Origin: a virus
IMG/VR virus record: IMGVR_UViG_3300047558_000137
Location: 310,859 to 374,314 of that record
Reading direction: 5' to 3' (one strand)
DNA: 63,456 bases
Position 1 is the first letter of the stretch, and the number at the start of each line of letters is the position of its first letter. The notes under the pieces were generated by a model. The model saw nothing but the letters and a program-made list of their open reading frames with translations, was not told the origin of the DNA and made no database searches. Positions 277 to 63,456 of the stretch are shown here, piece by piece. The position numbers were made by a program, and so were the translations under genes.

Positions 277-281
277 TATGG

Positions 282-355
282 CGACCCCGAATGGATTTGA
301 ACCACTGACATTTGGTTTTGGAGACCAACGTTCTGCCGGACTGAACTACGGAGCC
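282..355 (-). tRNA. tRNA-Trp (CCA anticodon)
   Basis: A cloverleaf can be drawn by hand. The acceptor stem GGCTCCG pairs with CGGGGTC (two G-U pairs), the D stem is GTTC/GAAC, the anticodon stem is TTGGT/ACCAA with loop CTCCAAA, and the T-loop is TTCAAAT. The anticodon CCA reads UGG. A 3' CCA is not fully encoded. Confidence 0.85.
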
Positions 356-384
356 ATATTAAATTTGTAAGTAGTGCTACCATC

Positions 385-390
385 ATTATA
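385..390 (-). promoter_or_regulatory. Possible -10 element for tRNA-Trp
   Basis: A perfect TATAAT lies about 30 nt upstream of tRNA-Trp on the minus strand. The hexamer 17 nt further upstream (TTACGT) matches the -35 consensus only partly, so the call rests on the -10 and its placement. Confidence 0.3.
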
Positions 391-425
391 AGCACCATTC
401 ACCCTTTACGTAAAGCCTAGGCTGG

Positions 426-481
426 GACTCGGTACGTTACTTGGGATTCATCCAGCCTGTGCGCCACTATGCACCCGAGTC
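426..481 (-). pseudogene. tRNA-like remnant lacking a T arm (GAA anticodon-like loop)
   Basis: On the minus strand a perfect 7-bp acceptor-like stem (GACTCGG/CCGAGTC) closes a 56-nt element. It contains a good D arm (GTGC, 8-nt loop with GTGG, GCAC) and an anticodon-like loop ATGAATC, which would present GAA (Phe). Only three base pairs support that loop, and there is no T arm. It looks like a decayed or reduced tRNA gene; a functional minimal tRNA is unlikely. Confidence 0.4.
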
Positions 482-491
482 TTCCGACCCG

Positions 492-508
492 TTGGGAATC
501 GAACCCAC
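492..508 (-). pseudogene. Isolated tRNA T-arm remnant
   Basis: The minus strand carries a classic T arm: a GTGGG stem, the loop TTCGATT, then CCCAA. No matching acceptor, D or anticodon arm can be folded at normal spacing on its 5' side. It lies just upstream (5' on the minus strand) of the T-arm-less tRNA-like element at 426-481. Confidence 0.4.
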
Positions 509-580
509 GACCTTTTACTGTTTAGGTAGTTCGAACATACCATTAACAGCGTGACTTCACTTGCTAACACTTACAAAACT

Positions 581-672
581 TGGCGGAAGGCGGAGGAGTC
601 GAACCCCATCCCCGTTAGGAGAACCTGGTTTTCAAGGCCAGTCGCAGGACCAACCCCGCTGCATCACCTTCC
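581..672 (-). tRNA. tRNA-Ser (TGA anticodon), CCA encoded
   Basis: Class II tRNA. The acceptor GGAAGGT pairs with GCCTTCC (one wobble or mismatch at the seventh pair), the anticodon loop CTTGAAAA region presents TGA, there is a long variable arm, the T-loop is TTCGACT, and the gene ends in an encoded CCA. The anticodon UGA reads UCN serine codons. Confidence 0.88.
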
Positions 673-832
673 ATAATAGATTTTCTGAGTGACCAGCTAT
701 CTTTCTCAAGGACTCACTGGCTTGTCTCGTAGAGGAGAGTTTAAACTACCCGATGTTGCTACTGGTGTGTCAGTCTCAAGAATAGGGACCTAGCGCACCG
801 GGGACTCAATCCAAACGTCTAACTCAGAAACT

Positions 833-905
833 TGGTGGATCAATGCGGGTTCGAACCGCTACTGAGACCCATAATGGCAATCCCAGTTACTCCTAGACTT
901 GACCC
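833..905 (-). pseudogene. tRNA-like element with encoded CCA, probably degenerate
   Basis: The acceptor GGGTCAA pairs with TTGATCC (one G-U), the D stem CTAG/CTGG folds, the T-loop is TTCGAAC, and the discriminator A plus CCA is intact. The anticodon stem is poor, with a mismatch next to the loop. Position 33 would be C instead of the near-universal U, leaving no clean anticodon (CAT can be read only in an enlarged loop). It lies directly upstream of the cluster's tRNA-Ser and downstream of tRNA-Met on the minus strand. Confidence 0.45.
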
Positions 906-911
906 ATAACT

Positions 912-986
912 TGGTGGAAGTAGCTAGATTCGAACTAGCGATAGTTACCGTATGAAGGTAGTGCATTACCACTTTGCTATACTTCC
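912..986 (-). tRNA. tRNA-Met (CAT anticodon), CCA encoded
   Basis: The acceptor GGAAGTA pairs perfectly with TACTTCC. The D arm contains GTGGTAA, the anticodon stem CTACC/GGTAA carries loop TTCATAC, the T arm is GCTAG/CTAGC with TTCGAAT, and CCA is encoded. The anticodon CAT could be elongator Met or, if lysidinylated, Ile2; sequence alone does not decide. Confidence 0.85.
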
Positions 987-1233
987 AGTATTCTAAAACA
1001 CATTAGTTGCCTAGCTTTGTCCCGGCAGTCGTTACCCGTCAAAAGGATAAAGAGCGTTTCATCTAATATGCTTTAGAATACCCTGCATTTCTGCAGGATA
1101 TGATAGGGTTGATACCCTACCCAGTTATTTGTACTCTGCCGTTATCGCCAGCATTTCATCCAACTGTCCGCCCGTTTGTGGCATGTTTTAAGTGCGCCAC
1201 CCAGTCCTCGTTACTGGTATCCTTCACACTACT
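987..1233. other. Noncoding spacer with small hairpins
   Basis: No convincing gene is seen on either strand. Two short hairpins stand out: CCTGCA/TGCAGG with a TTTC loop at 1082-1097, and TAGGG/CCCTA at 1104-1119, which on the minus strand resembles a T arm with loop TATCAAC. No promoter with a good -35 and -10 is seen. Confidence 0.4.
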
Positions 1234-1398
1234 CTACGGTTGTAAAGTACGTTCTTCCTGAACTTTTCTGGAACGATAGTGCCTTTCGGCCCGTTCCATC
1301 TTATCTTGGATCAACTTGTGTAGCTGTTCCTTAGTAAGAGTATGTTCAGTTGTGAACTTTACTTCTCGCATACGTTGTTTCAAATTCACTTGTTTCAT
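1234..1398 (-). CDS. Small basic hypothetical protein (54 aa)
   Basis: Lys/Arg-rich 54-residue protein, predicted helical, with no recognised family. I chose the ATG at 1398 over the in-frame ATG at 1416. The later one has a good ribosome-binding sequence (AGGA, 6 nt upstream), and the earlier one lies against the T-run of the terminator at 1419-1445. It is the first gene after that terminator, so it may be expressed by readthrough. The charge and helical pattern would fit a nucleic-acid-binding or host-takeover peptide, but that is only a guess. Confidence 0.55.
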   Translation of the reverse strand: MKQVNLKQRMREVKFTTEHTLTKEQLHKLIQDKMERAERHYRSRKVQEERTLQP

Positions 1399-1418
1399 TT
1401 TCTTTCCTACAAACAAAA

Positions 1419-1445
1419 AACCCTAGGGTTTTTAGTCCTAGGGTT
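1419..1445 (-). terminator. Intrinsic terminator
   Basis: A 9-bp perfect stem (AACCCTAGG/CCTAGGGTT) with a 9-nt loop is followed on the minus strand by a T-run. It closes the transcript of the 47-aa gene at 1476-1619, and possibly readthrough from the two tRNAs upstream of that gene. Confidence 0.75.
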
Positions 1446-1475
1446 CCTTTTAGTTTAGAATGTAAGTTTGTTTAC

Positions 1476-1619
1476 TTAACCATCCCATCCCTCTCGGAAC
1501 CCTGTTGTAATCTCTGGTGTGCGATCACTATTTGTATTCGCAAACAAAGACCAATAGGCTGACATGCCTAGTCCGGGCTGTTGTTGTTTAAGCGAATGAC
1601 AGAATGTGTGTTGCATCAT
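1476..1619 (-). CDS. Hypothetical 47-aa small protein
   Basis: A short frame of 48 codons including a TAA stop, starting with two consecutive ATGs. It sits in a complete transcription unit: a sigma70 promoter (TTGACA, 17 nt, TACAAT) ends 7 nt before the ATG, and an intrinsic terminator follows 30 bp after the stop. AGGA lies in the short leader. The protein begins MMQHTF, contains QQQPGLG and ends EGWDG. It has no membrane segment or signal and matches no family I recognise. Because the unit is so compact it could instead be a roughly 200-nt regulatory RNA, but the frame is intact and protein-like. Confidence 0.5.
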   Translation of the reverse strand: MMQHTFCHSLKQQQPGLGMSAYWSLFANTNSDRTPEITTGFREGWDG

Positions 1620-1626
1620 GTTTCCT

Positions 1627-1655
1627 ATTGTATTTTATTTATCTCTTTGTGTCAA
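1627..1655 (-). promoter_or_regulatory. sigma70 promoter TTGACA-17-TACAAT
   Basis: On the minus strand a perfect -35 (1655-1650) is separated by 17 nt from TACAAT (1632-1627). The predicted start falls on or next to the ATG of the 47-aa gene. Confidence 0.75.
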
Positions 1656-1674
1656 CCACTATATCAAATAGTGG
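1656..1674 (-). promoter_or_regulatory. Inverted repeat abutting the -35
   Basis: CCACTAT / ATAGTGG with a 5-nt loop lies immediately upstream of the TTGACA box. There is no T-run, so it is not a terminator. It could be an operator for a repressor or a processing hairpin at the 3' side of the tRNA transcript. Confidence 0.35.
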
Positions 1675-1689
1675 TAAAATTGTTCATTT

Positions 1690-1780
1690 TGGTAGGAGAG
1701 ACCGGAGTCGAACCGATATCAGCCAATTATCTGTTGCTACGGGGTATAAGCCCGCCGTTTTACCATTAAACTACTCTCCC
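1690..1780 (-). tRNA. Class II tRNA with TAT anticodon, CCA encoded
   Basis: The acceptor GGGAGAG pairs with CTCTCCT (one G-U), the D stem is GTTT/AAAC, the anticodon stem GCGGG/CCCGT carries loop CTTATAC, the T arm is ATCGG/CCGGT with TTCGACT, and CCA is encoded. The anticodon by position is TAT (AUA, Ile). The variable region is about 21 nt, as in Leu, Ser or Tyr tRNAs, which is unusual for an isoleucine tRNA. Amino-acid identity is therefore uncertain. Confidence 0.75.
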
Positions 1781-1788
1781 AGAAAATT

Positions 1789-1874
1789 TGGTGCGACTGG
1801 CCGGAATCGAACCGGCACGCCATTACAGCGGGAGATTTTAAGTCTCCTGTGGCTACCAATTACACCACAGTCGC
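1789..1874 (-). tRNA. tRNA-Leu (TAA anticodon), CCA encoded
   Basis: The acceptor GCGACTG/CAGTCGC is perfect. The anticodon stem GGAGA/TCTCC has loop CTTAAAA (TAA), followed by a long class II variable arm and T-loop TTCGATT; CCA is encoded. It is the first gene of a two-tRNA transcript; the next tRNA begins 8 nt downstream. Confidence 0.9.
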
Positions 1875-1939
1875 ATCTACGATCATAACAATCGTATTCG
1901 TAACTGGAATGTGTCTAAGGTAAGTTGTTTCATGATCTA

Positions 1940-1968
1940 ATTGTAATTTATTTATCTTTTACTGTCAA
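1940..1968 (-). promoter_or_regulatory. sigma70 promoter for the tRNA-Leu unit
   Basis: TTGACA (1968-1963), a 17-nt spacer, then TACAAT (1945-1940) on the minus strand. The -35 overlaps the last codons of the radical SAM gene. Confidence 0.7.
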
Positions 1969-2825
1969 ATGACTTTTGCATCTGTACAGCTCTTGCATAA
2001 ACTGCCGCTATTGTAGCAAGGTTCTGCATTCAGTGCAAGCAATTTGGTAAATTCAGGACCTGTAAACAAATCTTCATACTTTTGTGTTAAAAGATTGCCC
2101 AGCACATGCTTGGTATCGTAGTCCATACAGCATAATACTACATCTCCATTAGGCAACAAAACGTTTTGGTCATATAGACTTGTTTTACCGCAAACTACGG
2201 GCTTTTTGTGTTCTATAGTAAACACAACAGGTTGCTCTTTGATCTGCTCTTTGTTTAATGTACCTGCACGATCATGGGCCGCAATACTCCAATCATGACT
2301 GACGTATACCCCGGGTAAATGGCGAATTGCTGGATGCACTCCATGATCACTCATGGCCATTGCTTCGTAATGTATACCTGCTGCCTGTACAATTTCACGC
2401 ATACCAATGTAGGCGTATTCCCATTCTTCACTGAGCTTCCAACCCTTCATGTTACCTGCTTCGTCAGGAAAGTGTATCTTGAATATGTCAACTTGGCCTG
2501 CATGATTTAGTAACAGTTCGCCTACTCTATGTACTGTAGTTTCGTCCCAGTTGTATAGTGTAGTAAAGATGGCAACTTGCCTATCATTTTCTAGGGCATA
2601 CTCTAGCATGTCTGTACAGGCCGGATTAACCCAGGGTTCTGCCATGCCAGAAAAGTCAATACGACAATCCCATGGTAGTCGATCTACTACTGTTTTAAAT
2701 GTATCCAAGCTCATATACTTGGCATCTTCTTTACCATATGCATCACGTAGGTTGTCTTGTGGACAAAACGTACACATTAGGGGACAACCAATCATGGTTG
2801 TTATTTCCATTGTTTTGTGGCTCAT
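1965..2825 (-). CDS. Radical SAM enzyme with SPASM-type C-terminus
   Basis: 286 aa. The radical SAM cluster motif CxxxCxxC is at residues 14, 18 and 21 (C-P-L-M-C-T-F-C). It should bind a [4Fe-4S] cluster and cleave S-adenosylmethionine to a 5'-deoxyadenosyl radical. The C-terminal 75 residues hold seven cysteines (from residue 212), including a CC pair in a 'LPNGDVVLCC' context, typical of SPASM/twitch domains that bind auxiliary clusters. The substrate is unknown. Last gene of a minus-strand accessory operon that also carries a glycosyltransferase-like and a halogenase-like protein, so a role in modifying a glycan or small molecule is possible. It overlaps the preceding 80-aa gene by 4 bp, indicating translational coupling. 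Confidence 0.8.
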   Translation of the reverse strand: MSHKTMEITTMIGCPLMCTFCPQDNLRDAYGKEDAKYMSLDTFKTVVDRLPWDCRIDFSGMAEPWVNPACTDMLEYALENDRQVAIFTTLYNWDETTVHRVGELLLNHAGQVDIFKIHFPDEAGNMKGWKLSEEWEYAYIGMREIVQAAGIHYEAMAMSDHGVHPAIRHLPGVYVSHDWSIAAHDRAGTLNKEQIKEQPVVFTIEHKKPVVCGKTSLYDQNVLLPNGDVVLCCMDYDTKHVLGNLLTQKYEDLFTGPEFTKLLALNAEPCYNSGSLCKSCTDAKVI

Positions 2826-3064
2826 GACTTATTTAACTGTGCCCAAGCGAGCCAGGATCTAAAACTTTCATAGACCGCTTGCGCTTCTTTATCATCTTGA
2901 TCGATTCGTACTCCACGCACATAGAAACCATTATGGCTCACACGTAGCATTTCTTCTGAACCTGAATGAAAAATAATGCTATTTTTTGCCGCTTCAATTG
3001 CATCTACATCGATACTAAACAACTTTTTTGGGGGTTGTTCGTAGTTAAACTGAGAGGTGGTCAT
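2822..3064 (-). CDS. Conserved small phage protein (80 aa)
   Basis: 80 aa, no catalytic motif. The centre reads like a short phage protein type seen in many tailed phages (a pattern EMLRVSHNGFYVRGVRI followed by a helix with a conserved Trp). No function is known to me. Coupled to its neighbours by a 4-bp overlap downstream and a 20-bp overlap upstream. Confidence 0.6.
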   Translation of the reverse strand: MTTSQFNYEQPPKKLFSIDVDAIEAAKNSIIFHSGSEEMLRVSHNGFYVRGVRIDQDDKEAQAVYESFRSWLAWAQLNKS

Positions 3065-3401
3065 GCTTAATTTCCCTTACTGGATCGCCCAATGCTTCGG
3101 CTAGGTTGTTCTTAATTGTAACACGTATGTTATTATAATTACGAATTTCAACTGCTCTGCGCCCAATCTCCTCGTAGCCTAGGTTGTCTTCTAGTCCGCG
3201 ACGTAGATCGCTTTCCAATGCCCAAATGCTTAGATGCACAACTTCTAGTCGCTCAAGCAATGGCTGTACAGGTTCTAGATCAAATCTTTTGGCCTGTTCA
3301 GCATAGTAATCGTATTCAGCTTGGTTACCTAGACCTTTATCTAGTTTAATCTTGGCAATTACTAATCGATCTAATAGTTCTACTACTGGGAAAAATATCA
3401 T
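3045..3401 (-). CDS. Hypothetical helical protein next to glycosyltransferase
   Basis: 118 aa, almost entirely helical. A central H-x-x-x-W and a later IRNYNN-x-R segment recall small uncharacterised proteins often encoded beside polysaccharide or glycosyltransferase genes (DUF6165/DUF4254-like; resemblance by eye, not a verified match). The start overlaps the stop of the glycosyltransferase-like gene by 4 bp, so the two are probably made together. Confidence 0.6.
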   Translation of the reverse strand: MIFFPVVELLDRLVIAKIKLDKGLGNQAEYDYYAEQAKRFDLEPVQPLLERLEVVHLSIWALESDLRRGLEDNLGYEEIGRRAVEIRNYNNIRVTIKNNLAEALGDPVREIKHDHLSV

Positions 3402-4507
3402 ACGTACTTCTTAAATTGTTCTAATGTTAAGTCAGGAAGATTAATGTAATCTGTGTCTGCATATTGTGGCAGTGCATCAATTAAGATTTTATACAAATCA
3501 AAATAGACTTCTTCTGCTAAACGATACATAATCATTCTGTTATGCTGACGAATTTCTTGTGTTGGCTCAACAAGTTTTACATCAGATTTAACTAAGCGTT
3601 CAACTTCTGCGGCCACTGCACGTAGGCGCTCTCCTGGATACTCTAGACTATCGTAAGACTCATCTATTAGATCGCCAAACGTTTTAAACCCAAAGGCATG
3701 TAAGTGTCTAAGTGTATATTGCCCGCCTACTACAAGAAATGGATGCCCAACTAATAACGGCTTGTATGTTTTCTCTGTTACAAAGGTTTCGTTAGGTGCT
3801 GTTTCCAATGCTAGACTAAATTCTGTGTGCCAGTAATGCGGCGGATAGAAGTTTTCAAATCTAAAATCTTCATGGAAGTTTGCATTGGGCCAATCAATGA
3901 TTGGCTTAACATCTAGTTCAGTACGATCGGGAATTCTGTAATCAATGAAGCTGTGGATGCTTTGATTTAAGATATCTCGTTCAATCAGTTCCTTAAACAT
4001 TTCTTCTCTATTGTGTCGGCGTGTGCCATTTAAGAAAAGATATTTAAAAGTCTTTGGAAATGTGCTGATACCATCTGCGGTATATGCAAGTCTAGCACGA
4101 TTAAACTCTGTAGTTAGTCTATAGACAAAATACTTGTCTAGATTGTGTTCAACGAAACCATCAACTGCCCTATTGCCTTGCTTAACCAAGTGAATAGGTA
4201 TGCGTCTACGCACATAGTCCCTAGTGGGGTAATAACTACTGCTTAGTGTACTTTCACACTCACTTGGATAGTAGAAAATAATTGGAATGCCCAGGCTAGC
4301 ACAACGATCAATAATTTGCTTGGCATAGTCGCCATCGTTGCCCGGGACTTCTTCAACAAAGGCATCTGTTATTACAGCATCGCCTGTAATATCTTCTGGA
4401 TTTTTTACAATGGTGTAGGGTATGTTATACAGTTCCAGTACTGTAGTTAATAATCGATTTCTTGCACTACTAGGCCCAAGGGTCTGTCGAATTAAAAAAT
4501 TTATCAT
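3398..4507 (-). CDS. Glycosyltransferase-like protein (GT10/fucosyltransferase-like C-terminus)
   Basis: 369 aa from the ATG at 4507. Longer readings are rejected because they run through tRNA-Leu. The C-terminal part contains a TEKTYKPLLVGHPFLVVGG stretch (from about residue 244), like the nucleotide-sugar-binding motif of GT10-type fucosyltransferases. The protein at 50,779-51,765 has the same motif and layout, so the two are paralogues within this phage. Expected role: transfer of a sugar to a phage or host surface glycan. No signal peptide or membrane segment. The ATG lies 6 nt after the CCA of tRNA-Leu, without a Shine-Dalgarno sequence. Confidence 0.65.
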   Translation of the reverse strand: MINFLIRQTLGPSSARNRLLTTVLELYNIPYTIVKNPEDITGDAVITDAFVEEVPGNDGDYAKQIIDRCASLGIPIIFYYPSECESTLSSSYYPTRDYVRRRIPIHLVKQGNRAVDGFVEHNLDKYFVYRLTTEFNRARLAYTADGISTFPKTFKYLFLNGTRRHNREEMFKELIERDILNQSIHSFIDYRIPDRTELDVKPIIDWPNANFHEDFRFENFYPPHYWHTEFSLALETAPNETFVTEKTYKPLLVGHPFLVVGGQYTLRHLHAFGFKTFGDLIDESYDSLEYPGERLRAVAAEVERLVKSDVKLVEPTQEIRQHNRMIMYRLAEEVYFDLYKILIDALPQYADTDYINLPDLTLEQFKKYV

Positions 4508-4513
4508 GTTATA

Positions 4514-4590
4514 TGGTGCGGATGGTGGGACTCGAACCCACAAAATTTGGCTTCTAAGACCAACACGTATACCAATTCCATCACATCCGC
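4514..4590 (-). tRNA. tRNA-Leu (TAG anticodon), CCA encoded
   Basis: The acceptor GCGGATG/CATCCGC is perfect. The anticodon stem TTGGT/GCCAA has loop CTTAGAA (TAG) and the T arm GTGGG/CCCAC has TTCGAGT. The variable loop appears short for a leucine tRNA. It lies between the halogenase-like gene and the glycosyltransferase-like gene. Confidence 0.88.
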
Positions 4591-4601
4591 GTATGTGATC
4601 T

Positions 4602-4630
4602 AGTATAGTGTATATATCTTTATTTGTCAA
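4602..4630 (-). promoter_or_regulatory. sigma70 promoter for tRNA-Leu and downstream genes
   Basis: TTGACA (4630-4625), a 17-nt spacer, then TATACT (4607-4602) on the minus strand, 12 nt before tRNA-Leu. The -35 overlaps the end of the halogenase-like gene. Confidence 0.75.
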
Positions 4631-6224
4631 GCGGGTATAGCATTTTATAAAAATCTTTTGATGCAATACCTGTTAAACTTTGTTCTCTATACTTTTCACC
4701 CAGTTGATTAAAATACTCGATTGCCAGTGATTCAGTGTCCGAATCTAATTCTGTTAATAATCCCTCTGTCGGTATATCATAGTATGTAGCCTGCGATACC
4801 CAAACACTCCTAGACCATAGATACTTTTTATTTCTAGCATCAACAACATTTCTTCTACTTGTATTATTAATTAAATCATACAACATTTGAATCGAGTTTT
4901 GCTGCCTACCAACTTCTCTCATGTTTTCCCAATAAGGAGTATCCTTTTTGCAAAGATGAAAGGCAAAACGAATACGTAGTAGTGTATCTGCCATACGCAT
5001 ATTAACATACTCGTTGAAGTCTTCTTTCCATGTGCAGTCTAAATTTGTATCTGTTTTTAGATTGTCTACAACAAATTCAATTTTGCCTAGTGCAGTTGAA
5101 AAAGCATTAGCATCATACGCATCTACTAATCCATGACTTAGCCCTATTGTTATACAATTATTAACAAATGCTTTTTCTTGGTATCCAGGCTCCCATGAAA
5201 TTAATCTAAAGTCTACATCTGTTTTACCAGTTTTTTGGTAATACTCATCCTTTAGTGATTCAACATTGGTTGTATGGCGAGAATTGAATACATATCCCTC
5301 GCCACTACGAACATCCATTGCTACACTAAAATGCCAACCTTGATCCATTGCACGAATGTATGCATTGCTAGTTCGTTCGTTATCGTCGGTATATTTGTGT
5401 GGCCCAACAATGCATCTATCATTGAATGAATCATCTAGATGCTTAAACTTGTAGGGTAATTTTTTGCACAAAACTCTAGCGAAGCCAGTGCAGTCAAAAT
5501 ATAGATCTGCTGTTGCATGTGAGTCATCGTCTAATAGTAGATAATCAATATCGCCATTTTCTTTTAACACAACATCCTTAATTGCAATAGGTAACTCTTT
5601 AACACCGGCTGGCTTGCCTACCATATTATGAACCACTGCCCCAATTCGCATAGCATTAATATGATATCCAAATGTGCCACGTGGATGATTCCATTGCCCG
5701 GTTGTTATATTATAAGGTATTCTATCGTTACGCGAATACCAATAAGATTGGCTTGAATGTCCTGTATATAAATCCTTAGGAGTTCTATACTCTAATTGAT
5801 TTAGTAGGCCTTTATTTTTTAAGTACAACCATACATCGAGCATATCATATGGTGTTTGCGATTTATAAAAAGATGAATACTTTACTGCATCTATTCCACT
5901 CTCTTTAAAATCATTAAGTATTCCCATGTTAGGAACATCAGCATGATTTGTGTAGAAAACTGAATTGCTGTTATCCCAGTCCTGAAACCGAGACCCTACT
6001 CGAAATATCGATCCCGATTCTTTAATCCATTTAATATCTTTTTCAAACCCTAGCACCTTGTTCATAAAAGATGATGAGTTCCATTGTAGTGCTTCTCCTA
6101 CTCCCACCACTGGAGTTTTTGGATCGTATATAAGTGTTACGTCTAGATCTGGTCTATTACGCTTAATAGCAGATGATACAAAATTGCCGGCTGCGCCAGC
6201 GCCAACAACAATTATTTTTTTCAT
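4620..6224 (-). CDS. Tryptophan-halogenase-like flavoprotein
   Basis: 534 aa from ATG 6224; longer versions read into the tRNA. The N-terminal FAD-binding motif GxGxxG is at residues 8-13, followed by the VGVGEA motif (about 40-45) and a DQGWHF...GEGYVF segment corresponding to the substrate/flavin region of tryptophan 7-halogenases. Such enzymes use reduced FAD, oxygen and halide. The catalytic positions differ here: the usual Lys in the F-K-x-G motif is Arg75 (SIFRVG), and the loop that normally carries Glu-Ser-Thr reads D-A-N. A phage halogenase of this family (VirX1, from a cyanophage) has been described, so the family is known in phages. Activity here is uncertain. It follows a tRNA with an 8-nt gap and lacks a Shine-Dalgarno sequence. 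Confidence 0.75.
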   Translation of the reverse strand: MKKIIVVGAGAAGNFVSSAIKRNRPDLDVTLIYDPKTPVVGVGEALQWNSSSFMNKVLGFEKDIKWIKESGSIFRVGSRFQDWDNSNSVFYTNHADVPNMGILNDFKESGIDAVKYSSFYKSQTPYDMLDVWLYLKNKGLLNQLEYRTPKDLYTGHSSQSYWYSRNDRIPYNITTGQWNHPRGTFGYHINAMRIGAVVHNMVGKPAGVKELPIAIKDVVLKENGDIDYLLLDDDSHATADLYFDCTGFARVLCKKLPYKFKHLDDSFNDRCIVGPHKYTDDNERTSNAYIRAMDQGWHFSVAMDVRSGEGYVFNSRHTTNVESLKDEYYQKTGKTDVDFRLISWEPGYQEKAFVNNCITIGLSHGLVDAYDANAFSTALGKIEFVVDNLKTDTNLDCTWKEDFNEYVNMRMADTLLRIRFAFHLCKKDTPYWENMREVGRQQNSIQMLYDLINNTSRRNVVDARNKKYLWSRSVWVSQATYYDIPTEGLLTELDSDTESLAIEYFNQLGEKYREQSLTGIASKDFYKMLYPLDK

Positions 6225-6232
6225 AGATAAAA

Positions 6233-6309
6233 TGGTGCGCCCGGAGGGACTTGAACCCGCGACCAATGGATTATGAGTCCACTGCTCTAACCAACTGAGC
6301 TACAGGCGC
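6233..6309 (-). tRNA. tRNA-Met or tRNA-Ile2 (CAT anticodon), CCA encoded
   Basis: The acceptor GCGCCTG/CGGGCGC folds (one G-U), the D arm reads like the common GCTCAGTTGGTTAGAGC, the anticodon stem GTGGA/TCCAT has loop CTCATAA, and the T-loop is TTCAAGT. The body resembles bacterial elongator Met and Ile2 tRNAs. Together with 912-986 there are two CAT tRNAs, and one may be Ile2. Confidence 0.88.
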
Positions 6310-14833: not shown

Positions 14834-15158
14834 GATCTCTAGCGTCTGCAAAGTTAATTAAAAACCATAAATCCGTCCCGGTCTTGGCGTTGTATTCACG
14901 TTCAAGTTCGCGACGGGTTTTTTCTTTTGGATTCTCTATTGTTCCAACTGGACTGGCTACACCGTATTCTGTACTGTTAGGAACGTTGTCCATTAAGCCT
15001 GCTACTGCACCCTGTAGGCCACCCGGAACTGGTGCTGTTTCAACAATACCTGCTAATTTTTTAATTTCAGATAAGTCTGCGGCATCCATAACTGCATCTT
15101 GCTCACCTGTTTCTCCAGGCAGAACAAAGTTAGCACTTGTTATACGATACTGCTTCAT
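14757..15158 (-). CDS. Hypothetical protein with LAG motif (133 aa)
   Basis: 133 aa, no recognised domain. It contains DLSEIKKLAGI near residue 30, the same short motif as in the gp22-like and 518-aa proteins. The C-terminus is proline/glutamine-rich. The ATG overlaps the stop of the 131-aa gene by 4 bp (ATGA). Its 3' end is encoded antisense to the HNH gene, so both proteins constrain the same 77 bp. Confidence 0.6.
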   Translation of the reverse strand: MKQYRITSANFVLPGETGEQDAVMDAADLSEIKKLAGIVETAPVPGGLQGAVAGLMDNVPNSTEYGVASPVGTIENPKEKTRRELEREYNAKTGTDLWFLINFADARDLRRQIESYLDKHPQYQQRPLPGQDS

Positions 15159-15550
15159 TTCTTTTTAGATTTTAATTGAACTGGCCCGGGGTTGCGATGT
15201 GGACTATGTTTATGAGTATCTTCTGGCTCAGCACTTTTAGACCACGGTTGAATTTTTTTAACATCGCCCGGAATTGTTGCGTCTGCCTGACGAAACATGT
15301 TGTATTCTTCTTCTGTATAAGGATGTTCACTGTTATACTTCTCAATCCAACTATAAGCATCCATATCAACTGGCTTACTAGGATCTTTACCATCAGCCAT
15401 GGCAGTAGCCATCCATTTACGGTTAGCATAATTAACACGGTCATATCCGCCGTCGTCGCGACTAACAGTTATACTTTTTTGCACCGCTTTGTGTTCGGGC
15501 TTTACTGTTCCATGGATATTTTCTGTAATGATAATGTCAGTGATTTTCAT
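15155..15550 (-). CDS. Hypothetical late protein (131 aa)
   Basis: 131 aa, basic C-terminus (KSKKK), rich in Lys, His and Asp. No recognised family. The ATG lies exactly 5 nt after GCTAAATA, with no Shine-Dalgarno sequence, so late leaderless expression is predicted. Coupled to the 133-aa gene by a 4-bp overlap. Confidence 0.6.
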   Translation of the reverse strand: MKITDIIITENIHGTVKPEHKAVQKSITVSRDDGGYDRVNYANRKWMATAMADGKDPSKPVDMDAYSWIEKYNSEHPYTEEEYNMFRQADATIPGDVKKIQPWSKSAEPEDTHKHSPHRNPGPVQLKSKKK

Positions 15551-15555
15551 ATAAG

Positions 15556-15562
15556 TATTTAG
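15556..15562 (-). promoter_or_regulatory. Late promoter CTAAATA, 5 nt before ATG
   Basis: The minus strand reads GCTAAATA CTTAT ATG (start at 15550). It overlaps the stop codon region of the upstream SGNH-like gene. Confidence 0.65.
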
Positions 15563-16317
15563 CGTAATTTTCTTAAAAAATAATTAGCAATTGCCATATG
15601 AGATTCTATAGATAGCTGGGATATTTTTGTACCCTGAGATGGCAAGTACGTAAACATACCATCAATCGGTTCTCTATTTCTGTTAATGATCAGCTCATGC
15701 AGCTCTGAACCAATTGATTTAGCAGTTTGTGCTATTAGCAATTGATTTTTTCTATAGTTGTAGTTGTTACTTACCCAATCAATGTGGTCCCACCAATCAG
15801 TATAAGGGACTTCATTTATTTCTGAATATATACCGCCTTGAAATTTTTTACTAACAAACTCTCTAGTAGAAAATCCGGGCCACAATATGCAAACATGTTT
15901 TACTGCCCCATCTAATGCTAACATTGCTTTAGCTAAAATACGGGCCATTCCATCAGGACTTAAACTAGGTACACTTAAATTAACTACAGTTTCTGATCTT
16001 TGATTTTGTATAAGTGATGAAAATATATTATTAAACTCAACGCCTCGACCCATTCCATCACTGTCACTTATAACTAAAATTAATTCTTTTGTTTTTAAGT
16101 CATCTAAGATGTAATCAAAATTTGATCTGTACCCTAGGTTATTAAACGTATAGTTGATGCCCGCTTGTTCTAGTGTTATATCGTGTACATCTGGTCCTGT
16201 TAGTTGTATTCCATGGCGTGTCACAACTGCCCATGCAGGTGGAATTTCAGGTTTCCAATGTTCGTTAGGCAAGTGATCTTTGCCTAATAGCTGTTCTATT
16301 TGTTCTACTAGATCCAT
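15559..16317 (-). CDS. SGNH-hydrolase-like protein
   Basis: 252 aa. The layout resembles SGNH/GDSL esterase-like proteins: N-N-x-G-Y-R-S-N followed by a strand and ISDSDGMGRGVEFN, comparable to the GDSxTxG nucleophile block, then VVNLSVPS. The canonical GDS is changed to SDSDG and the C-terminal DxxH block is not obvious, so activity is doubtful. The phage encodes two clearer SGNH proteins near 50-52 kb. A TTAAATA element lies 4 nt before the ATG. Confidence 0.5.
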   Translation of the reverse strand: MDLVEQIEQLLGKDHLPNEHWKPEIPPAWAVVTRHGIQLTGPDVHDITLEQAGINYTFNNLGYRSNFDYILDDLKTKELILVISDSDGMGRGVEFNNIFSSLIQNQRSETVVNLSVPSLSPDGMARILAKAMLALDGAVKHVCILWPGFSTREFVSKKFQGGIYSEINEVPYTDWWDHIDWVSNNYNYRKNQLLIAQTAKSIGSELHELIINRNREPIDGMFTYLPSQGTKISQLSIESHMAIANYFLRKLR

Positions 16318-58654: not shown

Positions 58655-61153
58655 TTATGCGCTTACACGATATATCTTCTCTAGTTCGCTAGCTTGGTCT
58701 TTGTTTACTTTTACTAGTTCTTCCATCTTTTCAATCATGGTTGCAAACAGCCTTGCAGTTTCATTTACACCTGTGACTTGTGCTGGTCCACTGATTAGTT
58801 CTGCACCTGCTTCACCAACAATCCCTAATTCCCCGGCACCTAATCTTCCGCCTTTTTTCATTAGCTCAACGTGTACATGCTCACCATTTCCGCTAGCGTT
58901 AGGATGTGCTTCTGCTTTAGCTAACCCATTTAATATTTGATTAATAGCTGCTAATGTTGCATCCCGGGTACGTGGATCATTAAATTCAGCAATGTTAAGA
59001 TCCGCAGCTTTACCTTGTGTGTGCTTACTATTTTTATTATTATCTTGATGCCATTTATCATTTAATGCATTAATTGCATTAATGTGTAGGCCCGGCATAC
59101 TACGTATCCTTTTAACAACTTCTACTAGTCGTTGTTCTGCGGCACCGCCGGCTGTAGCTTCACCAGGCTTACTTCCACGTAGTAAATCTGTTAGTCCTTC
59201 GTAATTGGTAGTCATACTTCCCAATGGACTAAGTTCTGCTACTTCTAACGGCTTAGTGCTGCCGGCCATTTTTTGCGCGGCTTCCTTTTTACGTGCTTCT
59301 CTATATGCTCTAGCTTCGTTAGCCAATGCTTCATCTTGTTCTCGACGTGCTTTTGCTTTTCTTGCCGCAGCTTCTCTTTGTGCCGCTGGATCGGGCCCAG
59401 CAACCGTAGCGGCATCTTGTGCTGCTCTTACTTCTTGATTTGCCAATCGTGTTCGTTCAGCTGCACGTATTTCTTCGGCTGTTTGTGGCTTCTTGCCAGT
59501 TAATTTTTCTACTAGCTCTAGAATAACTCCAGAAAATTTATCAACAGCATCACCGAATGTTGGGCCAAATTTAGTAACTAATGTTTCATTGAAGTCTACC
59601 ATCCTGGTAGCAATATTAGCCATCTTAGGTAAACTCTCGACTGTAATTTCGTCCATACGCTTTTTAAACTTTTGTATAGACTCTAATAGAGCATCGTATT
59701 CAGTTGTTGCTTTATCTGTACCAGACTTACGCTTTTTATCTTGTTCAGCTAGTTCCTTTAAGGTACTTCCTTCAAGGTTAACACGCTTGTCTGTTGCTGA
59801 TACAATTTGAGATGTATTTTTGTTTAATCTAGAAACATACTCGTTTTGCGTAGCAAATGCTAATCTTGATACGTTAGCACCTTGATCTGTAAATTGCTTT
59901 AATGCACTTTCGTTGCCTTTTAATACTTCTGCAGTTGATTGATAAAACTGTTCTTTAGTATTACGTGTGGCAGCAACCATTTCTTGTGCCATTTTTACAA
60001 ATAAGCCATTACTCTGTGCATTTGCTTCTAAGCCAGCTTGACTAATTACAGTACCGTTAACTGCAATTTCTTCAACAATATCAGCAAAATCATCGCCCAT
60101 CATTGATTTAGCAATTAGAATTTGATTCTTAAGATTTTCTGCATAGTTAGTGCCATTTCTAGCATCCTCTGCTGATAGACGATTAATAGTGGCCTGTGTT
60201 GCAGCATGTTTTAACCGTTCTTCTATTTCTTTCTTCTGTTGTGCCGCGGTCATGCCAGTTATGGCTGTCATTTCCTTAAGAGTTACTAGATAAGCGCCGG
60301 ATCCTTTTTCTAAGAACTGGTAATTCTTAACCGTATCTATACCAGCTTTTGCGGCCAGCTCTGCATATTGTGCCGCAGCTCCGTTAACAGCTTCAAACGA
60401 GCCATACATAACCAGCAGGCCTTTTTCATTATTTCTTGCTTCTCGGCCCATGGCCATAACTCTGTTGGTAGCTTGTTGTATAGTGCCGCCTAGTGTAGAT
60501 AGCCCTTCAACGTTTTCTGTAACAAATTTACTATATTGAGCTATAGACATGCCACCGGCGTGTGCAGCTTTACCCATTTCTGTTAAGTTGCCGCCAAAGG
60601 TGACACCAACTTTGCTTAGATTATTGTAATTGTCGACAAGAGCCTGGCTGTTCTCCATCATCATCTTGCCAACTTGTAGACTCATGTCTATAGCAACAGA
60701 TGTGATTTTATCTACGCCAGCAATAGCTGCACCAAGGAAAGGAATACCCGAGAACATTGAGCTTAATGCGCCAGTTATAGACTTAATTGCATTTCCAAGC
60801 AAATTCATTGTAGGAATTACAGAAGTAAATGCCTTGTCGGAAGTATATATAGCCTGTGACGAATCTATAGCACCGCTAGCAAATTGATGTAATCCGCCTA
60901 ATACTTTCTTAATACCCTCGGCAATGGCCTTTTCACGATCTTCTTCGTATTTTTGCTGTTTCTTTTGAGTTTCGATTAAATCAAGTTTGGCTTTAATTTC
61001 CTGCTCGGAAACTTTGTGTAACTGGGCCAGCTTCTTAATAAAGGCTTCTTCTTGTAGCTGAGCCTTTGCCATCATGCGGGCTTGGCTTTCATAGCCAGAG
61101 TTAACCGTTCCTAAAATCGAATCAAGTTTGTCTAATCTATCTTCTACAGCCAT
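58655..61153 (-). CDS. Tape-measure-like tail protein with M15-type motif
   Basis: 832 aa. Long helical, Ala/Lys/Glu-rich protein with a central hydrophobic stretch (GIPFLGAAIAGVDKI near 135), as in tape measures. Near the C-terminus a zinc-peptidase signature of the M15/VanY type is visible: S-K-H-T-Q-G-K-A-A-D (H711, D718) and H-V-H-V-E (H759/H761). The end reads GELGIVGEAGAELI, the usual tape-measure terminal motif. It would set tail length, and the peptidase could trim peptidoglycan during injection. Position next to gp26 supports a tail role. It replaces T4 gp29 by inference. Confidence 0.7.
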   Translation of the reverse strand: MAVEDRLDKLDSILGTVNSGYESQARMMAKAQLQEEAFIKKLAQLHKVSEQEIKAKLDLIETQKKQQKYEEDREKAIAEGIKKVLGGLHQFASGAIDSSQAIYTSDKAFTSVIPTMNLLGNAIKSITGALSSMFSGIPFLGAAIAGVDKITSVAIDMSLQVGKMMMENSQALVDNYNNLSKVGVTFGGNLTEMGKAAHAGGMSIAQYSKFVTENVEGLSTLGGTIQQATNRVMAMGREARNNEKGLLVMYGSFEAVNGAAAQYAELAAKAGIDTVKNYQFLEKGSGAYLVTLKEMTAITGMTAAQQKKEIEERLKHAATQATINRLSAEDARNGTNYAENLKNQILIAKSMMGDDFADIVEEIAVNGTVISQAGLEANAQSNGLFVKMAQEMVAATRNTKEQFYQSTAEVLKGNESALKQFTDQGANVSRLAFATQNEYVSRLNKNTSQIVSATDKRVNLEGSTLKELAEQDKKRKSGTDKATTEYDALLESIQKFKKRMDEITVESLPKMANIATRMVDFNETLVTKFGPTFGDAVDKFSGVILELVEKLTGKKPQTAEEIRAAERTRLANQEVRAAQDAATVAGPDPAAQREAAARKAKARREQDEALANEARAYREARKKEAAQKMAGSTKPLEVAELSPLGSMTTNYEGLTDLLRGSKPGEATAGGAAEQRLVEVVKRIRSMPGLHINAINALNDKWHQDNNKNSKHTQGKAADLNIAEFNDPRTRDATLAAINQILNGLAKAEAHPNASGNGEHVHVELMKKGGRLGAGELGIVGEAGAELISGPAQVTGVNETARLFATMIEKMEELVKVNKDQASELEKIYRVSA

Positions 61154-61195
61154 TTAAAATACCCAGTTAATTATGTGATAAGTACATATATCAAT

Positions 61196-61202
61196 TATTT
61201 AT
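61196..61202 (-). promoter_or_regulatory. Late promoter ATAAATA for the tape measure
   Basis: On the minus strand, 42 nt before the ATG at 61153, in the divergent spacer with the gp26 gene. Confidence 0.45.
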
Positions 61203-61214
61203 GGAGTACTTTAT

Positions 61215-62060
61215 ATGAGTAGTTTATCCCCTAATCCATTGGCCAAACATTTTAGACAGCCTGCACTTTATATCAAACTTCCTAGCCACGGGCGCTGGTA
61301 TCCTGAGGGCGAAATTGACATTAGTGCAACTAACGAAATCCCTGTTTACCCAATGACTGCCCGGGATGAGATCATGATGAAAACTCCCGATGCATTAATG
61401 AATGGTGCTAGCACAACACAGGTTATTAAAAGTTGCTGCCCAAGCATTAAAAACCCCGAAAATATGCCTATTGTAGATTTAGATGCAGTATTGCTAGGCA
61501 TACGTCTGGCTACATATGGCCCAGAAATGGAATTTACAACGGCATGCCCTCACTGCAATACAAAAGCAGAAAAAGCCCTCAATGTATCTATTCTACTAGA
61601 TAAAATTGTTTCCGGCGACTGGACGTATCCTATAAAGTATAACGGATTGGAAATTACATTAAAGCCGCAAACATATAAAGACTTCAACGACAATAACCTA
61701 ATGAACTTTGATGAGCAACGTCTATTGCAAGTAATGCAAAACGATACAATGGATGAAGATGAAAAAGTTAAAAAATTCGACGAGATGTTTGCTAAACTAG
61801 TTGCAACCGGGATTAGTCAAGTTAGCAAAAACATTGCAAGTATTAAAACTGCTGAAGGGGTTATAGTTGACAACCCGGACTTTATCAGAGAATTCTTAGA
61901 TAATTGTGAAAAAGGCGTTTGGAATGCTATCAAAGAACGTTTAGATGCTATTAGACGTGAAAACAATTACAACGAAATAGCATTAACCTGTGAAAATGAA
62001 CAATGCGGCAAAGACTTTATTGCGCCGTTTGTATTCGAGCAATCAAATTTTTTCGTATAA
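61215..62060 (+). CDS. 26: Baseplate hub/tail assembly protein gp26-like
   Basis: 281 aa. N-terminal LPSHGRWYPEGEI..., then EIPVYPMTARDEIMMKTPDALMNG, is the T4-like cyanophage gp26 pattern. Two Cys pairs (ACPHC and CENEQC) probably bind zinc. Divergent from the tape-measure gene, like lambda gpG next to gpH. The stop is preceded by a slippery A-rich/T-rich run and the -1 frame is open downstream for a further 75 codons. GGAG precedes the ATG. Confidence 0.75.
   Translation: MSSLSPNPLAKHFRQPALYIKLPSHGRWYPEGEIDISATNEIPVYPMTARDEIMMKTPDALMNGASTTQVIKSCCPSIKNPENMPIVDLDAVLLGIRLATYGPEMEFTTACPHCNTKAEKALNVSILLDKIVSGDWTYPIKYNGLEITLKPQTYKDFNDNNLMNFDEQRLLQVMQNDTMDEDEKVKKFDEMFAKLVATGISQVSKNIASIKTAEGVIVDNPDFIREFLDNCEKGVWNAIKERLDAIRRENNYNEIALTCENEQCGKDFIAPFVFEQSNFFV
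62045..62054 (+). other. Predicted -1 ribosomal frameshift site
   Basis: AAATTTTTTC in the frame A AAT TTT TTC gives two overlapping X-XXY-YYZ heptamers (A AAT TTT and T TTT TTC) just two codons before the gp26 stop. A -1 slip moves ribosomes into the frame that continues to 62284. Confidence 0.6.
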
Positions 62061-62065
62061 GGCTT

Positions 62066-62284
62066 TTGACATTAAGCAATCAAGAGATCGTTGAATTAAT
62101 TGATTCAATGAGTAAAGATGCAAAAGCCATTAAAGAAGAGCTCTTAACATTATGCTGGTATATGAGGGGCAGTGTTAGTTATGACGATTCTATGATGTTA
62201 TCTCCCGAAGAAAGAGATATTATTAACAGCATTATTAAAAAGAACTTAGAAGCCACTAAGGAAACAGGATTACCATTCTTTTAA
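62066..62284 (+). CDS. Downstream half of tail assembly protein (frameshift product or 72-aa protein)
   Basis: In the -1 frame relative to gp26. It contains NQEIVELIDSMSKDAKAIKEELLTLCWYMRG and ends EATKETGLPFF, a pattern seen downstream of gp26 in T4-like cyanophages. If translated alone, the best start is TTG 62066 with AAGG close upstream; the next Met in frame is at residue 16 or so. If fused, gp26 gains about 75 residues, giving a G/G-T type chaperone pair. Confidence 0.65.
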   Translation: MTLSNQEIVELIDSMSKDAKAIKEELLTLCWYMRGSVSYDDSMMLSPEERDIINSIIKKNLEATKETGLPFF

Positions 62285-62709
62285 GATCACTACGTGATCT
62301 GTTGTTTCACTTCGTTCACAACATTTATTTTATTATTACAAGAGCGAAGCGATGTAGTATTCATCTAGATTAAGTGGTCACACTTTGCCCGCACAGGGCA
62401 AAAAATGACTTCATCTGAGTTGCACAGTCACTTAGCGTTACATCAATTACAGAGGCGGTTGTCCGGTACCTCGAGATGCGTCTTATCACAACGGCGGGCT
62501 AATATCTATACGCTAACATACATATTAACCGTGCTCAATCACTTGAGCGTCTTTTTAGCTTTTATTACTCTATTCAAATAACCAAACCGTAGCATTTACG
62601 ATCGACGTCCTGTTAAGGATGGTGGTTAAGCACTCTAGTCAGCATAGAGATTTCCGTCCCCCTTTTTATCGGGTTGTCACTAGGCACCTGAACTTAGCCG
62701 GTGCGAGCC
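62285..62709. other. 425-nt noncoding region with hairpins
   Basis: No protein gene is seen on either strand. It begins with a perfect hairpin (GATCAC/GTGATC, 62285-62299), has TTTGCCC/GGGCAAA near 62395, and on the minus strand GCACC/GGTGC near 62690. A plus-strand terminator lies inside. No tRNA cloverleaf could be folded by hand. It may hold an untranslated RNA. Confidence 0.4.
62533..62557 (+). terminator. Intrinsic terminator on plus strand
   Basis: GCTCAA/TTGAGC with a 4-nt loop followed by GTCTTTTT. It lies 250 bp after the last plus-strand codon, so the gp26 transcript has a long 3' tail or a separate RNA ends here. Confidence 0.65.
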
Positions 62710-63144
62710 TTAAACTGATAACTTGTTTATAATGTGGGAGCCATGGACACGGACTGATATTTGTCCGTTATAGTAATCTGTTGATTCCAAAACTTTGTGT
62801 GTAAATTGTTCTCGAGCCTCAACGTAGCTACATTCTGCTTTACTTTTACATAGGTATAGTATTTCCCGTGTAAATTTGTCAGCACCTAATGCTTCTACAT
62901 CTTTGTTTAATTGATCATTTGAGCCATAATATTCGCGCCAATCAGAGTCCACTTTGCTGCGGATTTTCTTTTTCTTTTTGGTGCCGTTTTTTAATTTTAC
63001 TGTTTTGGTAGATGTTTTACTAAATTTTGCTAGTTTTTTGCCTATGTATTTGCGCCCTGATACAAGGTTTGTGATTAGATAGACAAAGCCCACACAGTCT
63101 TCTGGTAATTCATTGATTGTGTTGCCTTGATAAATCCATGTCAT
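62710..63144 (-). CDS. GIY-YIG endonuclease-like protein
   Basis: 144 aa. G-F-V-Y-L-I-T-N-L ... R-K-Y-I-G-K-K has the two halves of a GIY-YIG core (VYL and YIG), followed by a Lys-rich insert and SDWREYYGSND...E-I-L. Homing endonucleases and repair nucleases carry this fold. In phages of this group it is usually a mobile or DNA-processing nuclease. Flanked by noncoding DNA on its 3' side. Confidence 0.68.
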   Translation of the reverse strand: MTWIYQGNTINELPEDCVGFVYLITNLVSGRKYIGKKLAKFSKTSTKTVKLKNGTKKKKKIRSKVDSDWREYYGSNDQLNKDVEALGADKFTREILYLCKSKAECSYVEAREQFTHKVLESTDYYNGQISVRVHGSHIINKLSV

Positions 63145-63164
63145 TGTACACTAATTTAGTCCTA

Positions 63165-63456
63165 TCACCACTCAGTGGCATATGAATCTGAAATTACTGC
63201 ACTGTTACATTTGGTTTGGCATTCCTGCCAGCGGAAAGTTTGAAACTCTCCTGTCCAAAATGGATCCTCTAATACTTCTTGTACGGTTCTTGTTTTTAAA
63301 TTAAATTTTTGAGCCAGGGTTTGCCATTCGTTGTTATGGTTATAACGGTTAGCTACCCAACAGCAAGGGAATAATAATCCCTGACTATTGATGTATAAAC
63401 CTTTGTTACCAATACCACATAAGGGCACTATGGAGCCATGATTTTTGAATTTTTTA
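63165..63456 (-). CDS. Radical SAM/SPASM C-terminal part, 5'-truncated by window edge
   Basis: At least 96 codons, open to the window end (the frame continues upstream of a GTG). PLCGIGNKGLYINSQGLLFPCC followed by three further Cys (CQTKC) is the auxiliary-cluster region of SPASM-type radical SAM proteins. The catalytic CxxxCxxC lies outside the window. A second radical SAM protein of this phage is at 1,965-2,825. Substrate unknown. Confidence 0.65.
   Translation of the reverse strand, partial: KKFKNHGSIVPLCGIGNKGLYINSQGLLFPCCWVANRYNHNNEWQTLAQKFNLKTRTVQEVLEDPFWTGEFQTFRWQECQTKCNSAVISDSYATEW

Follow-up and report, generated by a model that had tools for sequence, protein, structure and literature searches.

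A single gp26-like gene in the genome of a T4-like jumbo phage is very probably decoded by programmed −1 ribosomal frameshifting (we put the probability at about 0.9 on the sequence evidence), which would yield two predicted proteins of 281 and 356 amino acids. The sequences themselves carry the slip site, an open −1 frame under selection, the conservation of both and one such gene per genome. Most ribosomes would finish the 0 frame at AAT TTT TTC GTA TAA and release the 281-residue gp26-like short form. We infer that a fraction, presumably a minority, would slip back by one base with tRNA-Phe on TTT and TTC (T_TTT_TTC to TTT_TTT), pass the stop codon in the −1 frame and add 76 mostly helical residues, giving the 356-residue long form.

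The stretch of DNA analysed here (the window; 63,456 nucleotides) covers positions 310,859–374,314 of the IMG/VR record IMGVR_UViG_3300047558_000137 and forms the end of this 374-kb virus record. The first-pass annotation looked to T4-like cyanophages for comparison; the genome belongs instead to a jumbo T4-like phage, whose closest cultured relatives are the jumbo phages Phosso, Atu_ph07, BF, 121Q and PA5oct-like phages, all at less than 60% identity. Six tRNA genes (Trp, Met, Ile, Leu(taa), Leu(tag) and Met) lie on the minus strand at window positions 279–6309.

Profile searches matched the 0-frame protein to PF12322 (T4_baseplate; E = 1.1e-13), and it also matched phrog_150 (E = 6.7e-17). 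The gene is the only one with PF12322 in the 374-kb record, and a single PF12322 gene is found in each of 14 single-gene records. Its open reading frame (ORF) ends in TCA AAT TTT TTC GTA TAA, and the two overlapping in-phase heptamers that the first-pass annotation had read in this run are indeed present (Table 1), T_TTT_TTC being the only one conserved. The −1 frame is open from position 62000 to a TAA at 62282–62284, again as had been claimed; it holds 76 codons after the slip, the earlier figure of 72 being a count from the TTG at 62066. The long form is composed of 280 0-frame residues and the 76 −1 residues.

As a check on chance, 66 ORFs of at least 100 amino acids were called mechanically in the window. 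A heptamer falls within the last 15 codons of five of these and a long −1 frame is open in 20, and the two features are combined only in the gp26-like gene and in one other ORF, near position 15561 on the minus strand. Because a second ORF of the window also combines them, the signal from a single sequence is mildly unusual, and the strength of the case comes from conservation. The second ORF (252 amino acids; window 15155–16317, minus strand) ends near T_TTT_TTA with an open −1 frame; it was rejected as a chance case because the gene that follows carries an ATG of its own.

Table 1. Features of the gp26-like gene and its −1 extension (window coordinates)
Feature	Position	Strand	Remarks
0-frame gene for the gp26-like short form (N part of the putative tail assembly chaperone)	61215..62060	+	281 aa; PF12322
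Overlapping heptamer A_AAT_TTT	62045..62051	+	In phase, unconserved, probably incidental; from sequence
Slippery heptamer T_TTT_TTC, 0-frame Phe-Phe codons	62048..62054	+	Right phase for −1 slip
−1 frame extension, 76 residues + TAA	62054..62284	+	Open frame and alignment
0-frame stop TAA	62058..62060	+	One codon past the heptamer; from sequence
Nucleotide motif TRAGGCTTTTG	62058..62068	+	Just 3′ of the slip; overlaps the stop

Conservation of the slip site and the −1 frame

In a first set of relatives, NNT TTT TTC near the stop codon and a homologous −1 frame were found in all 13 IMG/VR relatives and in six phages. The slip site is also present in the cyanophages P-SSM2 and S-PM2 and in KVP40, Aeh1, ZPAH1, S13, phiW-14 and OLIVR5, and it takes the form T_TTT_TTT in phiM12 and HTVC008M, in which the T run is seven or eight long. 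An in-phase heptamer occurs at 213 of 217 loci; L004, L144, L150 and L202 were left unscored because of upstream frame breaks or contig ends. Removal of exact duplicates and of a single spurious heptamer, from a contig with a broken frame, left 181 non-redundant relatives from the T4-like superfamily, 173 with T_TTT_TTC, six with T_TTT_TTT and two with A_AAT_TTT (T_TTT_TTY in 179), and the −1 frame is open in all 181; these are counts over related sequences, uncorrected for phylogeny, and not independent events. The 85 non-redundant members of the window clade without exception combine an in-phase NNT TTT TTC with an open −1 frame, and neither the slippery run nor the openness of the −1 frame has been lost in any close relative scored.

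The first Phe codon is TTT in 179 of the 179 relatives with a T run, as against a usage elsewhere of 71–75% (36% in the small 'other' group). The codon ahead of the run always ends in T, whatever the amino acid encoded, and is AAT in only 57 of the 85 window-clade members. These third bases of the slip site are kept even between proteins as low as 27% identical. The gap from heptamer to stop is one codon in 65/85 of the window clade.

A few loci depart from this pattern. A_AAT_TTT replaces T_TTT_TTC in two cyanophage-type contigs (L139 and L140) that retain the SD-like element and the open −1 frame, a natural swap of the slip site. Another cyanophage-type record (L097; IMGVR_UViG_3300049043_000112) has lost the slip site and joins the two parts in one frame; it represents either a genuine gene for the long form alone or an error in the sequence. 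The distant Sphingomonas phage PAU (L045) has a single PF12322 gene without T_TTT_TTC, and the ORF after it, in the +1 frame, has a ribosome site and an ATG of its own.

The −1 frame is under protein-level selection before any possible start codon. Position 3 of the −1 frame, right after the two Phe residues, is Arg in 84 of 85 window-clade members, with all four CGN codons in use, and the bases that encode this Arg give varied residues in the 0 frame. Position 5 is likewise Arg in 73 of the 85, through AGG, CGC or CGG, and both residues lie upstream of the commonest candidate start, a TTG at position 7. An alignment of the −1 domain from 45 members has F1, F2, R3, W37, M39 and R40 invariant. 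No ATG, GTG or TTG is found within the first 16 −1 codons of 21 of the 85 window-clade members, and an early start codon is lacking in 7 of 88 cyanophage-type relatives and in 4 of 8 others. An SD interaction of −4 kcal/mol or lower accompanies 0–2% of candidate −1 starts in the two large groups and one of four in the small group. The first-pass annotation had allowed for a downstream frame that starts at its own TTG or ATG; because 21 of the 85 members have no early start codon and the two Arg residues are conserved ahead of the TTG, a separate start for the −1 domain appears unlikely.

Stimulators and other readings of the junction

In the cyanophage type, a strong SD-like sequence precedes the slip by 5–11 nt in 99% of cases, and the Glu codon of this element is GAG in 80 of 86, as compared with a background of 25%. 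A 3′ hairpin in the same group exceeds that of synonymous-codon shuffles, with a mean z of −2.88 (−0.03 for the next 42 nt, which served as the control). The cyanophage branch thus resembles Escherichia coli dnaX, which has an SD-like element 5′ of the slip and a 3′ hairpin; dnaX differs in its heptamer, and the window clade differs from it in having no SD element (8% only). Folding excess after the slip is small in the window clade (mean z of −0.96; control, +0.27). The window's own downstream fold is weak relative to shuffles (−6.8 kcal/mol; z of −0.5), and z is −1.5 in the near-identical L001. An Rfam scan of positions 60000–63456 found no frameshift element. Its sole match (79.8 bits; 62576–62709, minus strand) was to the Polynucleobacter-1 RNA (RF01718), an RNA family of unknown function, which sits between the end of the −1 frame and a gene for a SegE-type GIY-YIG endonuclease (62710–63144, minus strand).

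The motif TRAGGCTTTTG spans the −1 codons Arg-Leu-Leu and a TTG. Either TAAGGCTTTTG or TGAGGCTTTTG is present in 39 of the 85 window-clade members, and the codons chosen are AGG in 61/73, CTT in 56/75 and TTG in 55/74, against backgrounds of 5–16%. The motif could be a stimulator of frameshifting, or it could be a restart site, for which its spacing is too short.

Restarting belongs to an alternative account of the junction, coupled re-initiation, in which ribosomes that have terminated at TAA would resume at the TTG at 62066, or at an ATG in relatives, so that the product of ~72 residues is a separate chain, with no fusion. This account draws on the UAAGG that overlaps the stop directly ahead of the TTG, on a choice of AGG-CTT-TTG codons conserved far over background and on the two-gene annotation of several relatives, in which the genes overlap at ATGA or TAATG. 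However, only 3 nt separate UAAGG from the TTG, which is too short for SD pairing, SD potential at the candidate starts is weak, and near-identical L001 has UAAGU. Moreover, re-initiation conflicts with the startless members and with the Arg residues conserved upstream of the TTG, and it leaves the constraint on NNT TTT TTC unexplained. We therefore regard it as an improbable replacement for frameshifting; separate translation of the small domain through a TTG restart could take place in addition to frameshifting.

Transcriptional slippage would instead generate frame-shifted mRNAs on the T run, which has six consecutive Ts in the window and is longer in phiM12 and HTVC008M. Six Ts followed by a C are nonetheless short for slippage by RNA polymerase, the X_XXY_YYZ codon phase of the run is preserved, A_AAT_TTT stands in its place in two relatives, and the SD-plus-hairpin arrangement of the cyanophage branch is of the ribosome type, all of which makes this origin highly improbable. 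The in-frame fusion without a slip site in L097 is what could be cited for a sequencing or assembly error, or for a decayed in-frame fusion, with the real gene being one ORF. The same frame break, however, recurs across many lineages, in metagenome contigs as well as complete phage genomes, with the reading intact on either side, and this conservation across independent genomes refutes an error or decay, the chance of which we consider negligible.

Relation to gp26 and gp51 of T4

Both gp26 and gp51 of T4 belong to PF12322, and gp51 has an extra C terminus; both have been classed as chaperones of hub assembly, and gp51 is required although the particle does not contain it (PMC3004832). For the cyanophage, KVP40 and Aeh1 types, a −1 domain profile matches gp51 residues ~197–251 (E = 4e-14 to 5e-6). 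The gp51 C terminus was matched in all seven two-gene phages tested, with the match beginning at the slip junction, and the profile found no match in gp26 of the two-gene phages. On this profile evidence, the −1 domain of the cyanophage, vibriophage and Aeromonas relatives is homologous to the C terminus of T4 gp51. For the −1 domain of the window clade, homology to the gp51 C terminus is no more than suggestive, with a weak hhalign probability of 61% against gp51 and of 4.5% against T4 gp51 alone.

T4-type phages obtain the equivalent short and long pair from two paralogous genes, gp26 without a slip site and gp51 as an in-frame fusion, whereas the window has one gene; common to both arrangements are PF12322 and an N part shared by the short and long forms. 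T_TTT_TTY is absent from the end of gp26 in six two-gene phages, and T4 has TTC TTT there. A tree groups the gp26 and gp51 proteins of the two-gene phages on the same side of a branch (support 98/94), beside KVP40, Aeh1, S13 and ZPAH1. The simplest reading, with the root of the tree assumed, is that one duplication within the Straboviridae gave the gp26/gp51 pair. A broader scheme, to which we give somewhat less than even odds, is that the −1 slip was ancestral for T4-like gp26/gp51, that the Straboviridae duplication replaced it and that the jumbo clade would have its own stimulator, TRAGGCTTTTG, instead of the SD-plus-hairpin of the cyanophages.

An AlphaFold model of the 0-frame protein (pLDDT 87.8) matched viral baseplate hub and T4-like hub assembly proteins in BFVD, with a best E of 2.9e-24. 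A Foldseek search of the N part against the PDB, which may miss likeness so distant, gave no match at E ≤ 0.001 and found no solved tail assembly chaperone. The −1 domain was modelled as a confident helical structure (pLDDT 90.9), and Foldseek against viral models returned nothing significant for it. Sequence searches of the PDB gave nothing credible for gp51, for the N part or for the −1 domain.

A putative pair of tail assembly chaperones

By homology to T4 gp26/gp51 and by analogy with lambda gpG/gpGT, the two products of programmed −1 frameshifting would be a short and a long tail assembly chaperone (TAC). Binding of the tape measure protein would fall to the part common to both forms, and the extra domain of the minority long form would recruit tail subunits; both forms would leave before the tail is completed. 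The first-pass annotation had likewise drawn the analogy to tail chaperones, and the gp26/gp51 homology supports it, as do citations of the work of Vladimirov et al. Vladimirov, Gautam and Davidson (2022; Virology 566:9–15) reportedly identified the TACs of T4-like phages together with polyT slip signals. The earlier remark that no established case was known in T4-like phages appears out of date, judging from the papers that cite this work. As for the gene's position beside a tape-measure gene, the neighbour (58655–61153; 832 amino acids) does adjoin, and its syntenic counterpart in BF, which is weakly similar to it (E = 8e-5), matches tape-measure PHROGs weakly at 2.7e-6; the neighbour lies on the opposite strand and has no family match of its own. 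The 832-residue protein may be the tape measure protein.

Lambda gpG and gpGT act as chaperones of the tape measure protein (PMC5009743). The arrangement proposed for the window is like that of lambda, and also of P2 E/E+E′ and Mu-like phages, in that one gene gives, by a −1 slip close to the 3′ end, a minority form that is extended at its C terminus. It is unlike lambda in its heptamer (T_TTT_TTC versus G_GGA_AAG) and in the divergence of its likely tape-measure neighbour, and the window protein matches known chaperones, including those of the lambda/HK97 type, neither in sequence nor in solved structure. PMC12846349 refers to polyT sequences in the TAC-N genes of T4-like phages as known −1 signals. 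The TAC locus of the Vandenendeviridae/Andersonviridae (Pseudomonas phage Adele; PMC12846349) also has a conserved polyT slip motif and, as in the window, a −1 extension that is usually annotated as a separate hypothetical gene; its motif is GTTTTT and its phage family is another. According to PMC10885494, some T4-like phages do not frameshift and carry a short gene together with a long one that is fused.

This kind of frameshift is, as far as the citing papers tell, already known in T4-like phages, and novelty is limited. Since part of the case already appears to be in Vladimirov et al. (2022), the value of the present analysis lies in extension, quantification and better annotation rather than in a new principle. 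It adds a distant jumbo-phage clade, quantified conservation, the SD-plus-hairpin stimulators of the cyanophages and the clade motif TRAGGCTTTTG.

In genome records the extension appears as a gene of its own, labelled hypothetical or hub catalyst, or it is left out. Sullivan et al. (2010) described gp51 of cyanophages and marine vibriophages as lacking the first ~200 residues, and Aeh1 as lacking gp51 (PMC3037559). These truncations and absences would be explained because the missing residues are those of gp26, joined to the extension by the slip; this account is also an addition, unless Vladimirov et al. (2022) already gives it. A 2016 review named T4 as the exception to an otherwise widespread frameshift in tail-chaperone genes (PMC5009743). 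On the pattern seen here, the exception is T4's own branch, and nearly every scored single-gene relative keeps the slip site.
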